Positions 31,716 through 36,703 of a stretch of 64,000 bases of DNA are shown here, piece after piece (positions within the stretch are counted from its first letter, which is position 1; the number at the start of each line of letters is the position of its first letter). This stretch comes from Bacteroidia bacterium (GTDB taxonomy: Bacteria > Bacteroidota > Bacteroidia > SpSt-205): the NCBI GenBank assembly GCA_026414975.1, contig JAOAHZ010000011.1, positions 1-64,000 on the forward strand. Reading direction: 5' to 3'. The notes beneath the pieces are model-generated. The model searched no databases, was not told where the DNA came from, and saw only the letters and a list, made by a program, of their open reading frames with translations. Made by a program: the position numbers and the translations under genes.

Positions 31716-33240
31716 ACTCATTGCTGGACTAAAAGGGGTAAGGGTCGGCTGCGGCTCCACAGACTTACTCATAACTCAGCTTACAGCCGATAGTCGCACA
31801 GTACAGCCAGGCGCTCTCTTCGTAGCTTGGAAGGGGCGACAAACAGACGGACATCGGTTTATCCCGGAGGCGATTGAGCGGGGAGCCGTGGCTATCCTCG
31901 CTGAAAGTGCCGTAGAGGTGCCCTCATCCGTTACCCTCCTCCTCTCCCCGCATGCGCGTGAGTCGTATGCTTATTTATCTGCGGCGTGGTTTGACTATCC
32001 TGCACGCCAGCTTCGTATCGTAGGCATCACGGGTACCAATGGCAAAAGCTCCACAGCTTACTACCTCTACCAACTTCTGCGAGGCTTGGGCTATCGGACA
32101 GGGCTAATAGGCACAGTCTTCTGCTTAGCTGAGACCGAGACTCTTCCAGCCACCCTCACGACGCCAGATAGTTACGAGCTGCACCGACTACTCCGCTATT
32201 TCGTTGAACGGGGCATCACCCATGTGGCGATGGAAGTGAGCTCTATTGCGTTGGATCAGCGTCGGTCGGCGGGCATAGACTTCGCTGGAGCGGTTTTTAC
32301 CAATCTCAGCCACGATCATCTGGACTATCATGGGACCTTTACCGCATATAGAGACGCAAAGAAGCGGCTTTTCGATGGGCTTTCACCGAGCTCATTCGCT
32401 CTGACTAATGCGGATGACAAGCACGGACTCTTCATGCTTCAAAATACGGCTGCTCAGCGCTATTGCTACACCGTAGAGGGACGAGAAGACTTTGGATTGC
32501 GCCTGAGAGCCTTGGGATTGTGGGGCATAGAGTACGACCTCATCTTACGCTATGGAGAGGTAAGGCCGAAATCTACAGACGTGCCCTTGGTCATGGAAGA
32601 CATAGGCCCACTGAGTGCGCCGCTTTTAGGACGATTTCAAGCCTATAATCTGCTGGCAGCTATAGCGAGTGCCTTCTTGTTGGAAGCTAAGGGAGATAGG
32701 ATAGCTCTAAGGGAGCAATGGATGGAGCTGGGACGATTATCTACTTTACTTCAGACCTTGCCGGGGCGCTTGGAGCCCATAGCCTTACCCGAAGGGCGCA
32801 TGGGCTTGGTAGATTACGCTCACACACCCGATGCTGTGGAGCAAGTGCTACGAACTTTGAGGCCTCTCGTTCCAGAGGGCGGCAAACTCTTCGTAGTGCT
32901 GGGGGCAGGGGGAGACCGAGACTCGTCTAAACGAGCCCCTATGGCTAGTGCAGCCGCTCGCTTGGCGGACGTAGCTATCTTCACCAGCGATAACCCACGC
33001 AGCGAAGACCCTCTCGCCATTCTGCGGGACATGCAGTCAGGGGTCCCCCCTACGCTGACTTCTAAAGTCCTTACCATACCTGATAGAGCCGAAGCCATTC
33101 GAGCTGCCGTTCAGCTTTCTCCGCCTCATAGCCTTATCGCAGTATTAGGCAAAGGACACGAGACCTATCAGGAAATCCAAGGCGTCCGATACCCTTTCAG
33201 CGACCGACAAGTTCTCCAATCACTGGCCTATGCTGAGTGA
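31699..33240 (+). CDS. murE: UDP-MurNAc-L-Ala-D-Glu:meso-DAP ligase MurE
   Basis: This 513-residue Mur ligase has the ATP loop GITGTNGKSSTAYYL, the carbamylated-Lys region and LSHDHLDYHGTFTAY. The amino-acid selectivity motif is DNPR (SDNPRSEDP), which marks meso-diaminopimelate rather than lysine. The result is the cytoplasmic UDP-MurNAc-tripeptide, consistent with Mpl above. The start ATG overlaps the ftsI 3' end by 17 nt and the gene overlaps mraY by 11 nt. Confidence 0.96.
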   Translation: MKRLSELIAGLKGVRVGCGSTDLLITQLTADSRTVQPGALFVAWKGRQTDGHRFIPEAIERGAVAILAESAVEVPSSVTLLLSPHARESYAYLSAAWFDYPARQLRIVGITGTNGKSSTAYYLYQLLRGLGYRTGLIGTVFCLAETETLPATLTTPDSYELHRLLRYFVERGITHVAMEVSSIALDQRRSAGIDFAGAVFTNLSHDHLDYHGTFTAYRDAKKRLFDGLSPSSFALTNADDKHGLFMLQNTAAQRYCYTVEGREDFGLRLRALGLWGIEYDLILRYGEVRPKSTDVPLVMEDIGPLSAPLLGRFQAYNLLAAIASAFLLEAKGDRIALREQWMELGRLSTLLQTLPGRLEPIALPEGRMGLVDYAHTPDAVEQVLRTLRPLVPEGGKLFVVLGAGGDRDSSKRAPMASAAARLADVAIFTSDNPRSEDPLAILRDMQSGVPPTLTSKVLTIPDRAEAIRAAVQLSPPHSLIAVLGKGHETYQEIQGVRYPFSDRQVLQSLAYAE

Positions 33241-34639
33241 GTTTATGCGATGGTTAGATGAGACATGGATGATACCCGGGATGGGCTTAGCTCAATACAT
33301 CAGCTTTCGGACGCTCATGGCTGCCTTTACAGCAGGGGCTGTAGGGCTATGGATGGGTCCTATCCTGATTCGCTGGCTACGACGAAACGCTTTGGGAGAA
33401 ACGATCCGCTCAGAAGGACCCACCACCCATGCAAGCAAAAAGGGAACTCCCACGATGGGCGGGCTGCTTATCTTATTCAGCTTAGCGGCGGGGGCGCTTT
33501 TATGGGGCGAACTGAGCAGCGCTTATCTCTGGGCCCTCTTAGGTTTAGCGCTTTGGCTGGGAACCATCGGTTTCTTGGATGACTGGCTCAAACGCACCCG
33601 CAATAAAAAGGGCCTTTCCCCTCGGCTCAAGCTTTTAGGTCAGATGGGAGGGGCGATTTGGCTGACTGTGCTAATGCTCTTGGAGCCGAGCTTTCATAGC
33701 ACACGAGAGCGAGTGCGGGCTGATGGCTATATTCGGCTCTCCCCGCTTTTGGCCGAAGTAGGATTCCGCCGAGGAGATAGACTCTTAGCTGTGGACGGCC
33801 TGTCTTTTAGCTGGCGAGAATGGCGATTTCGACCCACTACCCCTGAGGGCACGCCTCCTCTCACCTATATCATTCAGCGTCAAACCGATACAGTCCATCT
33901 TGCCGTCCCTTCTGATAAGGCCTCGGCCGTCGCAGGCGAACTCTTCGGACAGGCCCAGCCTGAGACGGTCTTCCTAACCAACCTACCCCTGGTGAAAAAT
34001 CAGCTTATCGCTTATGGTGAAATAGGTAAGTGGCAAGCTCCCCTCTGGCTGCGCGCCTTAGTGTATGGGCTTATCGTCCTTTTTATTCTCACTGCAACAA
34101 GCAATGCCTTCAACCTAACGGATGGATTAGACGGATTGGCGGTAGGCGTGGGAACCGTAGCGTTTGTAAGTTTAGCCAGCTTTGCATACTTCTCCAGCAA
34201 TCGGATCTGGGCGGATTACTTCAAGATTCTTTACCTACCTCATGCTGCCGAAGTTACTGTATTTGCCGGGGCAGTAGTGGGAGCTTGCATCGCTTTTCTG
34301 TGGTACAATGCCTACCCAGCTCAAGTATTCATGGGGGACACAGGGAGCCTCATGTTAGGAGGACTGATTGGAGCCATGGCCCTCATGGTGAAAAAAGAAC
34401 TGCTTCTTCCTCTCATAGCTGGTATTCCATTCGCCGAAACCTTGTCGGTAATGATCCAAGTGGCTTATTTCCGCTACACCAAACGCAAGTACGGTGAGGG
34501 ACGAAGGATTTTCCGCATGTCTCCTCTTCACCACCATTTTGAGCTATGCGGCTGGCACGAAGTCAAGGTGGTAACCCGTTTTTGGATCATCGCTTTGATT
34601 CTGAATGCCTTAGCCTTCATAACGCTCAAGCTGCGATGA
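33230..34639 (+). CDS. mraY: MraY (phospho-MurNAc-pentapeptide transferase) with inserted PDZ-like domain
   Basis: MraY transfers phospho-MurNAc-pentapeptide to undecaprenyl phosphate to form lipid I. Conserved parts are GTPTMGGLLIL (72-82), the DDW catalytic pair (117-119), NLTDGLDGLAVG (295-306), FMGDTGS (367-373) and SPLHHHFE (431-438). At 469 residues it is about 100 longer than the E. coli enzyme. The extra sequence (about 155-246) lies between two membrane segments, in the extracytoplasmic loop that normally forms a short beta-hairpin. Residues about 165-228 read like a PDZ domain: LLAEVGFRRGDRLLAVDG followed by a YIIQRQTDTVHLAVP strand pair. The hairpin strand NLPLVKN follows. ATG 33245 is an alternative start. 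Confidence 0.95.
   Translation: MLSEFMRWLDETWMIPGMGLAQYISFRTLMAAFTAGAVGLWMGPILIRWLRRNALGETIRSEGPTTHASKKGTPTMGGLLILFSLAAGALLWGELSSAYLWALLGLALWLGTIGFLDDWLKRTRNKKGLSPRLKLLGQMGGAIWLTVLMLLEPSFHSTRERVRADGYIRLSPLLAEVGFRRGDRLLAVDGLSFSWREWRFRPTTPEGTPPLTYIIQRQTDTVHLAVPSDKASAVAGELFGQAQPETVFLTNLPLVKNQLIAYGEIGKWQAPLWLRALVYGLIVLFILTATSNAFNLTDGLDGLAVGVGTVAFVSLASFAYFSSNRIWADYFKILYLPHAAEVTVFAGAVVGACIAFLWYNAYPAQVFMGDTGSLMLGGLIGAMALMVKKELLLPLIAGIPFAETLSVMIQVAYFRYTKRKYGEGRRIFRMSPLHHHFELCGWHEVKVVTRFWIIALILNALAFITLKLR
33722..33913 (+). other. Segment encoding the PDZ-like insert in MraY
   Basis: It codes for residues about 165-228 of MraY. The string GFRRGDRLLAVDG matches the carboxylate-binding-loop and beta-strand pattern (G-x-x-x-G-D-x-I/L-x-x-V-D/N-G) of bacterial PDZ domains, as in RseP or DegS. 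The reading frame is continuous with MraY on both sides, with no stop or frame change. Confidence 0.6.
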
Positions 34640-36015
34640 GTCAGCGCATCGGGATTTGGGGTTTGGGGGAAAGTGGGGTAGGAGCAGCTCTCTTAGCCCA
34701 GCGCTGGGGGTATGAGACTCTCCTGGTGGCAGACAAACCCCCAAGCTCGCTCCATGCTCAACGGCTCCAAGAAGCAGGCCTCACTTGGCATATAGCAGAG
34801 GACCCAACTCCTCTACTGAAAGAAGCTGACTTAGTCGTGCGCAGTCCCGGCATTCGACCAGATACCCCTGCCCTCCACCAGCTAATCGCATCGGGTGTGC
34901 CAGTCGTATCAGACTTAGAGTGGGGATGGCGTCATTTTCCTAAATCATCCCAACTATGGCTCGTTACGGGTTCTGCTGGCAAAACCACGACCACTACCCT
35001 TTTAGCCCATCTCATACGAACCGCTGGACGACGCGCCATCGCCTGCGGTAATATCGGCTATAGCTTTTGTCTCGCTCTCTGTGAAGACAAGCCCTATGCG
35101 TACTACGTCGTAGAAGCGAGTTCTTTCCAGCTTTGGGACACTTATTCACTGATACCCAACCTTTTCGTGATCACGAGCTTAGTCCGCAATCACATAGATT
35201 GGCATGGCAGCTTGGAGGCTTACGCCCACGCTAAGCTCCACATTTTAGGACGGCTGCCCAGCGAGACCCATCTCATTTACGCTGCCGATAGCGAGCTACT
35301 CGTGGAGAAACTGCGGCTTTATCCTACACATGCCCAGTCTTGGCGCTTCGCTGTGGCACCCAGCGAGGGCATACACGCATGGATAGAAGGAAACAAACTC
35401 ATATGCGATATGAAAGTAGGCGATGATGCAGACCGATGGGAAGTGTCGTATGAAGCGACCCCGCTTCAAGAGCTTCCTAAAAGAAAGAACGCCTTAGCGG
35501 CAGCTATTGCCGGACGATTGGCGGGCCTACGGCGAGCTGACTTGCGACGCTCGTTTGAGACGATGGAAAAGATGCCCCACCGATTAGAGCAGGTGGCACT
35601 CATTGATGGAGTACTCTATGTAAATGACTCCAAAGCTACTACGACCGACGCTGTATGGTATGCCCTTCAGAGCTTTGAGCGTCCTATCATCTGGATCGCC
35701 GGCGGCGTAGACAAGGGTAACGATTGGGGAGAAATCCTGGATATCGTTCGGGCTCGTGTAAGGGCTTTGGTTCTGATTGGAACCAATCCTGAGCCGATTT
35801 ACCGGGCCTTTTGCGACACAGTGCCAGTAATAGAGCGAGCCGGCTCTATGAGAGAAGCCGTGGAGAAAGCCCACAAGTTAGCTCGCCCCGATGAAGTCGT
35901 ACTCTTATCGCCCGGATGTGCGAGCTTTGACTGGTTCAGCAGTTATGAAGAACGGGGCAACGCTTTCCGAGAAGCGGTCTCTCAGCTCAAAAGTGAAAAG
36001 GCGCAATCCGTTTAG
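34636..36015 (+). CDS. murD: UDP-MurNAc-L-alanine:D-glutamate ligase MurD
   Basis: This 459-residue Mur ligase adds D-Glu to UDP-MurNAc-L-Ala. It has the N-terminal Rossmann start IGIWGLGESGVGAALLA, the ATP loop VTGSAGKTTTTTLLAHL, MPHRLEQVALIDGVLYVNDS and the C-terminal LLSPGCASFDWF. ATG 34636 overlaps the mraY stop as ATGA; the upstream in-frame extension lies inside mraY. The usual downstream genes ftsW, murG and murC are absent. A CHAD-like gene starts inside its last codons. Confidence 0.95.
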   Translation: MSQRIGIWGLGESGVGAALLAQRWGYETLLVADKPPSSLHAQRLQEAGLTWHIAEDPTPLLKEADLVVRSPGIRPDTPALHQLIASGVPVVSDLEWGWRHFPKSSQLWLVTGSAGKTTTTTLLAHLIRTAGRRAIACGNIGYSFCLALCEDKPYAYYVVEASSFQLWDTYSLIPNLFVITSLVRNHIDWHGSLEAYAHAKLHILGRLPSETHLIYAADSELLVEKLRLYPTHAQSWRFAVAPSEGIHAWIEGNKLICDMKVGDDADRWEVSYEATPLQELPKRKNALAAAIAGRLAGLRRADLRRSFETMEKMPHRLEQVALIDGVLYVNDSKATTTDAVWYALQSFERPIIWIAGGVDKGNDWGEILDIVRARVRALVLIGTNPEPIYRAFCDTVPVIERAGSMREAVEKAHKLARPDEVVLLSPGCASFDWFSSYEERGNAFREAVSQLKSEKAQSV

Positions 36016-36703
36016 GTTGGGGCTGAGACGCCTGCGCAAACCTACCCCGAAGGCTATCTATCGCTTCAGGCGACGCGTAAAGCGACTGCGAGTTTATCTG
36101 GAGCTTTATACATTCCCGAGCGAGGCGCCTCATAGTCCTGCTTTGAGTCGACTATTTCGCCGGGCCGGCAAGCTCCGTCAAGCTTACTTACATGAGGAGT
36201 GGGTACGGCTTCATGCACCCGAATGGAGAAAAGCCGTGAAGAAGGAAATCCGCTATCGCAAGCGCCGCTTTAGCAAGCTATACCGAAAGTCAGTAGAGGA
36301 TATTCGGGGGGTGCTGGCGGAGTGGCGAAAACGCTTCCCGCCCCCTTGGAAGGAAAAGGAAAGCTTAGTGATGTGGGAAAAGCAAGGCCAAAGCTGGATT
36401 CAGGTCCATAAGGCAACTCTCAGACAATTCCCCTCTCCACCCTACACGACCAAGCAGCTTCATGAACTGCGTACGCTTATACGGAAGTGGGAGTTAGCGA
36501 CGGTATGGGTAGACCTTCTAGAACGGCCTCCTGCCGAGCTTTCTACGCTTTTGGGAGAAGCCCGAGACCTCTATCTCCTTCAAAAGTGGCTTACTCAAAA
36601 GGGTTCCAAAAAGCCACTTCTAGACTCCATTCGTCATGAGCTGCTTCGAAAAGAATCTCAAGCTATCGCTCTGTGGCAAAGCTGGCGAGCTTCCTTGGGT
36701 TAA
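35993..36703 (+). CDS. CHAD-like basic helical protein
   Basis: This 236-residue, very basic, all-helical protein resembles CHAD domains (polyphosphate-binding helical bundles). An N-terminal helix AIYRFRRRVKRLRVYLELY matches the RVxxRRLR core, LHELRTLIRKWELA matches the second LHxLRxxxKxxRY helix, and LLGEARDLYLLQKWL matches the Gly-x-x-x-Asp-Leu step. The first CHAD His is replaced by Arg, so the match is partial. GTG 35993 lies in the last codons of murD, giving a 23-nt overlap. The following TPR gene starts inside it. Its place at the end of the dcw cluster is unusual. A role in polyphosphate or other polyanion binding is inferred. Confidence 0.6.
   Translation: MKRRNPFRLGLRRLRKPTPKAIYRFRRRVKRLRVYLELYTFPSEAPHSPALSRLFRRAGKLRQAYLHEEWVRLHAPEWRKAVKKEIRYRKRRFSKLYRKSVEDIRGVLAEWRKRFPPPWKEKESLVMWEKQGQSWIQVHKATLRQFPSPPYTTKQLHELRTLIRKWELATVWVDLLERPPAELSTLLGEARDLYLLQKWLTQKGSKKPLLDSIRHELLRKESQAIALWQSWRASLG

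Follow-up and report, generated by a model that had tools for sequence, protein, structure and literature searches.

MraY is an essential enzyme and an antibiotic target, and its membrane topology is established. The copy encoded in the 64,000-nucleotide stretch of Bacteroidia DNA analysed here (the window) has a long segment between two of its membrane helices, and this raises the question of what the segment is, how it came to be part of a cell-wall enzyme and what it could do there. The features to which we refer, all on the forward strand, are the following:

33230..34639, forward: mraY, 469 aa, overlapping the end of murE and followed by murD
33578..33583, forward: catalytic D117-D118 (invariant alignment columns)
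33620..33682, forward: TM4, residues 131-151, the last membrane segment ahead of the insert (helix in the AlphaFold core model)
33683..33973, forward: predicted PDZ-derived insert, residues 152-248, ~97 aa (loop lengths, alignments and profile comparison)
33722..33919, forward: predicted PDZ homology core, residues 165-230 (phmmer/hmmsearch to RseP/S2P PDZ structures, hhalign to RseP PDZ1)
33761..33778, forward: GFRRGD turn, with G178 and D183 invariant in 27 insert carriers
33866..33907, forward: predicted βE-βF pair YIIQRQTDTVHLAV, with R217 invariant and Y213 present in 96% of the 27 carriers
33911..33949, forward: conserved linker, probably helical, ending in LFG, with G240 invariant in the 27 carriers
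33974..34015, forward: retained MraY periplasmic β-hairpin, with T250, P253, K256 and Y262 invariant in carriers
34112..34132, forward: NLTDGLD catalytic motif, residues 295-301 (invariant alignment columns)
34529..34537, forward: HHH motif, residues 434-436 (invariant alignment columns)

The host enzyme and the position of the insert

The window ORF scores 329.6 bits against the TIGR00445 mraY model (cut-off 192.05), and a 31-member MraY alignment shows D117/D118, N295/D298/D301 and H434-H436 to be invariant. Both results agree with the original prediction of a 469-residue MraY with intact catalytic motifs. AlphaFold returns a confident polytopic membrane core for the full-length protein (pTM 0.81), and the gene sits between murE and murD within a cell-wall cluster. 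Apart from mraY, PF00953 matches just one frame of the window genome, a separate one of 356 aa on a different contig. By these sequence criteria, the product of 33230-34639 is a true MraY, with predicted lipid I synthase activity, carrying a PDZ-derived domain similar to the first PDZ domain of RseP (PDZ-N). Further downstream, a 270-aa strongly basic ORF (window positions 35891-36703) overlaps the end of murD; Pfam gives no match to it at E <= 0.001. This ORF apparently marks the end of the cell-wall cluster, with a gene for a 983-aa TPR protein coming next instead of ftsW, murG or murC.

Between the conserved columns of TM4 and TM5 the window MraY has 153 aa, as against 50-67 aa in most MraY proteins from outside Bacteroidota, 77 in that of Fermentibacteria and 79-126 in the insert-less Bacteroidia. 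The gain amounts to ~100 residues in total, ~97 of which lie upstream of the periplasmic hairpin. As the hairpin motif T..PFxK...Y comes after the insert and is intact, the domain is an addition between TM4 and the hairpin rather than a swap. The earlier description of about 90 extra residues where the E. coli enzyme has a short β-hairpin is thus corrected in two respects, the size of the gain and the retention of the hairpin. The stretch first singled out, 33722-33913 (residues 165-228), coincides almost exactly with the part that matches solved PDZ domains. Given the established topology of MraY, the insert faces the periplasm. Known MraY proteins (PDB 8g01, 4j72, 5jnq) share with the window protein the catalytic core with its Asp/His motifs, the periplasmic hairpin, the murE-mraY-murD context and the residues of a proposed lipid II cavity, but they lack the ~97-residue domain between TM4 and the hairpin. 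In the insert-less Bacteroidia proteins this position is occupied by a linker that varies widely in length and could be what is left of a lost domain.

Homology of the insert to the RseP PDZ domain

When a profile of 24 inserts is compared by hhalign with a profile of the first PDZ domains (PDZ1) of Bacteroidota RseP proteins, the two match with a probability of 98.8%, an E-value of 4.6e-17 and a score of 89.6; the reversed control scores 10 and the best of 30 column shuffles 16.4. The probability is 98.6 without the window family, and with flanks included the match spans 95 collinear columns, from F155, just past the membrane helix, to the hairpin. Likewise, phmmer aligns residues 142-237 of the window MraY with RseP. 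A profile of 14 inserts run against the PDB places the PDZ domains of S2P and RseP first (E 1.3e-4 and 4e-4), followed by DegP and HtrA. In whole genomes, insert profiles recover MraY inserts first and RseP second, and all of the 30 loci fetched for the weaker matches from other genomes have HExGH and NxxPxPxxDG, i.e. they are RseP. We conclude from these comparisons that the insert is homologous to the segment following TM2 of RseP together with its first PDZ domain. The PDZ pattern and the comparison to RseP had been proposed from the sequence of this one protein; the hhalign probability and the S2P/RseP-led PDB profile matches make both right, and stronger than was seen at the time.

The insert and the PDZ-N of RseP and site-2 proteases (3wkl, 7w71, 2zpm) are alike in the collinear arrangement from the post-membrane segment to the PDZ core (GF..GD, YTV.R, IP) and in forming a periplasmic domain after a membrane helix. 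They differ in that E. coli RseP has tandem PDZ domains and MraY a single one, in which the segment corresponding to the groove helix is shortened or altered. The host of the insert is a transferase, and direct reading of the window MraY sequence finds neither of the zinc-site motifs HExxH and NxxPxPxxDG, so that the PDZ domain is all that it has in common with RseP. The PDZ domains of HtrA, DegP and DegS belong to the same fold family, with weaker profile matches; the insert scores lower to them than to RseP, and the HtrA-type carboxylate-loop motif is not seen in it.

One alternative is that the segment forms a loop, disordered or extended, with a GD motif that looks PDZ-like by chance. Taken singly, the window sequence does fall short of a Pfam assignment, matching PDZ_6 at E=0.0075 with 16.4 bits (below the gathering cut-off of 27) and the S2P PDZ 3wkl in the PDB at E=0.0022. 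The structure prediction could be read in the same way: the full-length protein was modelled with a 31-row alignment in which all relatives are insert-less, the insert was also modelled alone, and in the alignment without insert-bearing relatives the pLDDT of the insert is ~41, while the core is excellent. Foldseek with this low-confidence insert model finds no match at E <= 0.001. Since AlphaFold gave no confident model of the insert, the fold assignment rests on homology. However, a profile-profile match far above shuffled controls, PDB profile matches led by PDZ proteins and the fact that the insert profile retrieves RseP PDZ1 from many genomes all speak against a chance resemblance, which we regard as very improbable. 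An SH3-like identity, suggested by single-sequence PDB matches, was rejected, as the insert profile puts PDZ first and leaves SH3 at E >1.

Taken jointly, the homology to the RseP PDZ and the placement between TM4 and the hairpin are highly probable on these alignments. Because single sequences stay under the PDZ cut-off, routine annotation misses the insert, and we use the term PDZ-derived, for a diverged relative; it should not be named a canonical peptide-binding PDZ domain, nor RseP. In the RseP of the window genome itself, the first PDZ domain is shortened (AQPLLGIQTGDRLLAVNG), some residues that usually precede the GD turn being missing.

Distribution, history and constraint

A search of 12 relatives from the genus, family and order found the same insert in all of them, with one copy cut by a contig end; this places it beyond chance. 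In a class sample of 395 Bacteroidia genomes from ~78 family groups, it occurs in 8 of these groups, with a clear gap between the MraY matches (E <= 2e-14) and all others (E >= 3e-8). A phylum sample of 395 genomes, which leaned to complete genomes and included the window's family as the only carrier family, yielded no MraY-type match outside Bacteroidia. None of the ten odd-looking weak matches fetched from the class and phylum samples is MraY. The MraY loci examined from a contig scan all lack the insert, and a scan of viral contigs for relatives found nothing. In one carrier genome, two contigs match plasmids of Pontibacter sp. G13 with full identity over the 12 kb sampled.

In a tree built on the MraY core, with the loop left out, the 15 insert-less Bacteroidia group in a single clade (support 100), and the carriers are paraphyletic. 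This topology fits one old gain of the insert followed by one loss. The scenario is tentative, because constraining the carriers to one clade is disfavoured only weakly (AU p = 0.042), and the branching order is tentative because the window family lies on a long branch. A single gain is compatible with either order and is favoured as the probable history by both the distribution and the tree. Hence, a branch of the Bacteroidia would have acquired an RseP-PDZ-N-like domain in MraY, probably once, between TM4 and the hairpin.

In comparisons with the three closest relatives, dN is 0.28-0.32 for the insert and 0.08-0.11 for the core, with dS >1 or saturated, so that dN/dS ratios are indicative only. 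The insert is constrained, though it evolves ~3 times faster than the core; G178, D183, R217 and G240 are invariant in the 27 carriers. Its faster evolution and its absence from most Bacteroidia indicate that MraY can in general do without it. These observations bear on a non-regulatory reading, in which the insert would be an old structural ornament that stabilises or tethers the TM4-TM5 loop and was removed, or has a short linker in its place, in most Bacteroidia. The variable linkers at the same place in insert-less Bacteroidia, the rapid evolution relative to the core and the one loss implied by the core tree all suit such an ornament, whereas the retention of the invariant residues and of the hairpin-side LFG motif across 8 families speaks against it. 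Amino-acid change well below the synonymous rate also stands against it, although a domain kept for stability only would be constrained too. On balance, we consider the ornament unlikely.

A possible regulator on the extracytoplasmic face

A second possibility is that the PDZ fold acts as a dock or sensor, binding a periplasmic protein or peptide (a division protein, MurJ, a PBP, a lipoprotein or a misfolded protein) and coupling precursor supply to it. PDZ domains commonly mediate protein contacts, a partner-specific surface would suit the fast evolution of the insert, and the window family has a full-length βD-βE segment with a conserved WRFRP stretch. However, the stretch that should form the groove helix is shortened or altered. 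From the GD turn to the βE arginine there are 24-30 residues in 7 of the 8 carrier families, compared to 30-32 in RseP and 32-33 in the window family, and in the latter the stretch reads WRFRPTTPEGTPP, which is proline-rich and not helix-like; RseP sequences at this place include YWEEALDPEHLAS. No carboxylate-loop or GLGF-type motif was seen by eye in the insert sequence. The nearest relative is also described in other terms, the PDZ pair of RseP being regarded as a size-exclusion filter, and no candidate ligand was identified. The shortened or proline-rich groove-helix stretch, together with the unseen carboxylate-loop motif, weakens the peptide-sensor reading. Thus, the module for binding the C-termini of periplasmic ligands envisaged in the original prediction is the part that gains no backing: the sequence lends no support to a canonical peptide sensor, and docking in the broader sense appears rather improbable.

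Instead, the insert might work by its position and not by canonical capture of C-terminal peptides. The MraY dimer interface has an extracytoplasmic cavity at which lipid II has been proposed to inhibit the enzyme (PMC10914600). By alignment, the E. coli contact residues Y21, T23, W217, F224, Y227 and K358 correspond to Y23, S25, Y320, W327, Y330 and K467 of the window MraY, i.e. they are kept or conservatively changed. We propose that the folded insert could cap the extracytoplasmic mouth of MraY, sterically or allosterically, by analogy to RseP, in which the PDZ pair forms a steric filter above its own membrane domain. Such a cap might limit or tune how far externalized lipid II or undecaprenyl phosphate can enter the periplasmic cavity, which has been proposed to control MraY activity, or it might alter the response of this cavity. 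The cap mechanism is put forward tentatively, with odds somewhat short of even, and the same reserve applies to the best explanation as a whole, which combines single gain, homology, placement and cap. A bolder and somewhat doubtful extension is that the RseP-derived domain serves as an in-built regulator of MraY on the extracytoplasmic side, sensing the state of the envelope by way of either a protein partner or externalized lipid II, and setting lipid I synthesis from outside the membrane.

If this doubtful reading is true, an extracytoplasmic regulatory layer of this sort would be undescribed for any MraY. A search of the open-licence literature on MraY and PDZ domains turned up incidental mentions only and nothing on a domain insertion in MraY, in line with the earlier claim that a PDZ-MraY fusion had not been described. 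With a feedback site recently placed on the extracytoplasmic face of MraY, a natural added domain at that face offers a ready-made comparison for control from outside, and here a domain of a stress-response protease is found within a cell-wall synthase. The conservation of the insert in one set of lineages and its absence from their relatives provide a useful contrast. Among the carriers themselves, there is one family in which the insert is extended by up to 12 residues between its last two strands.
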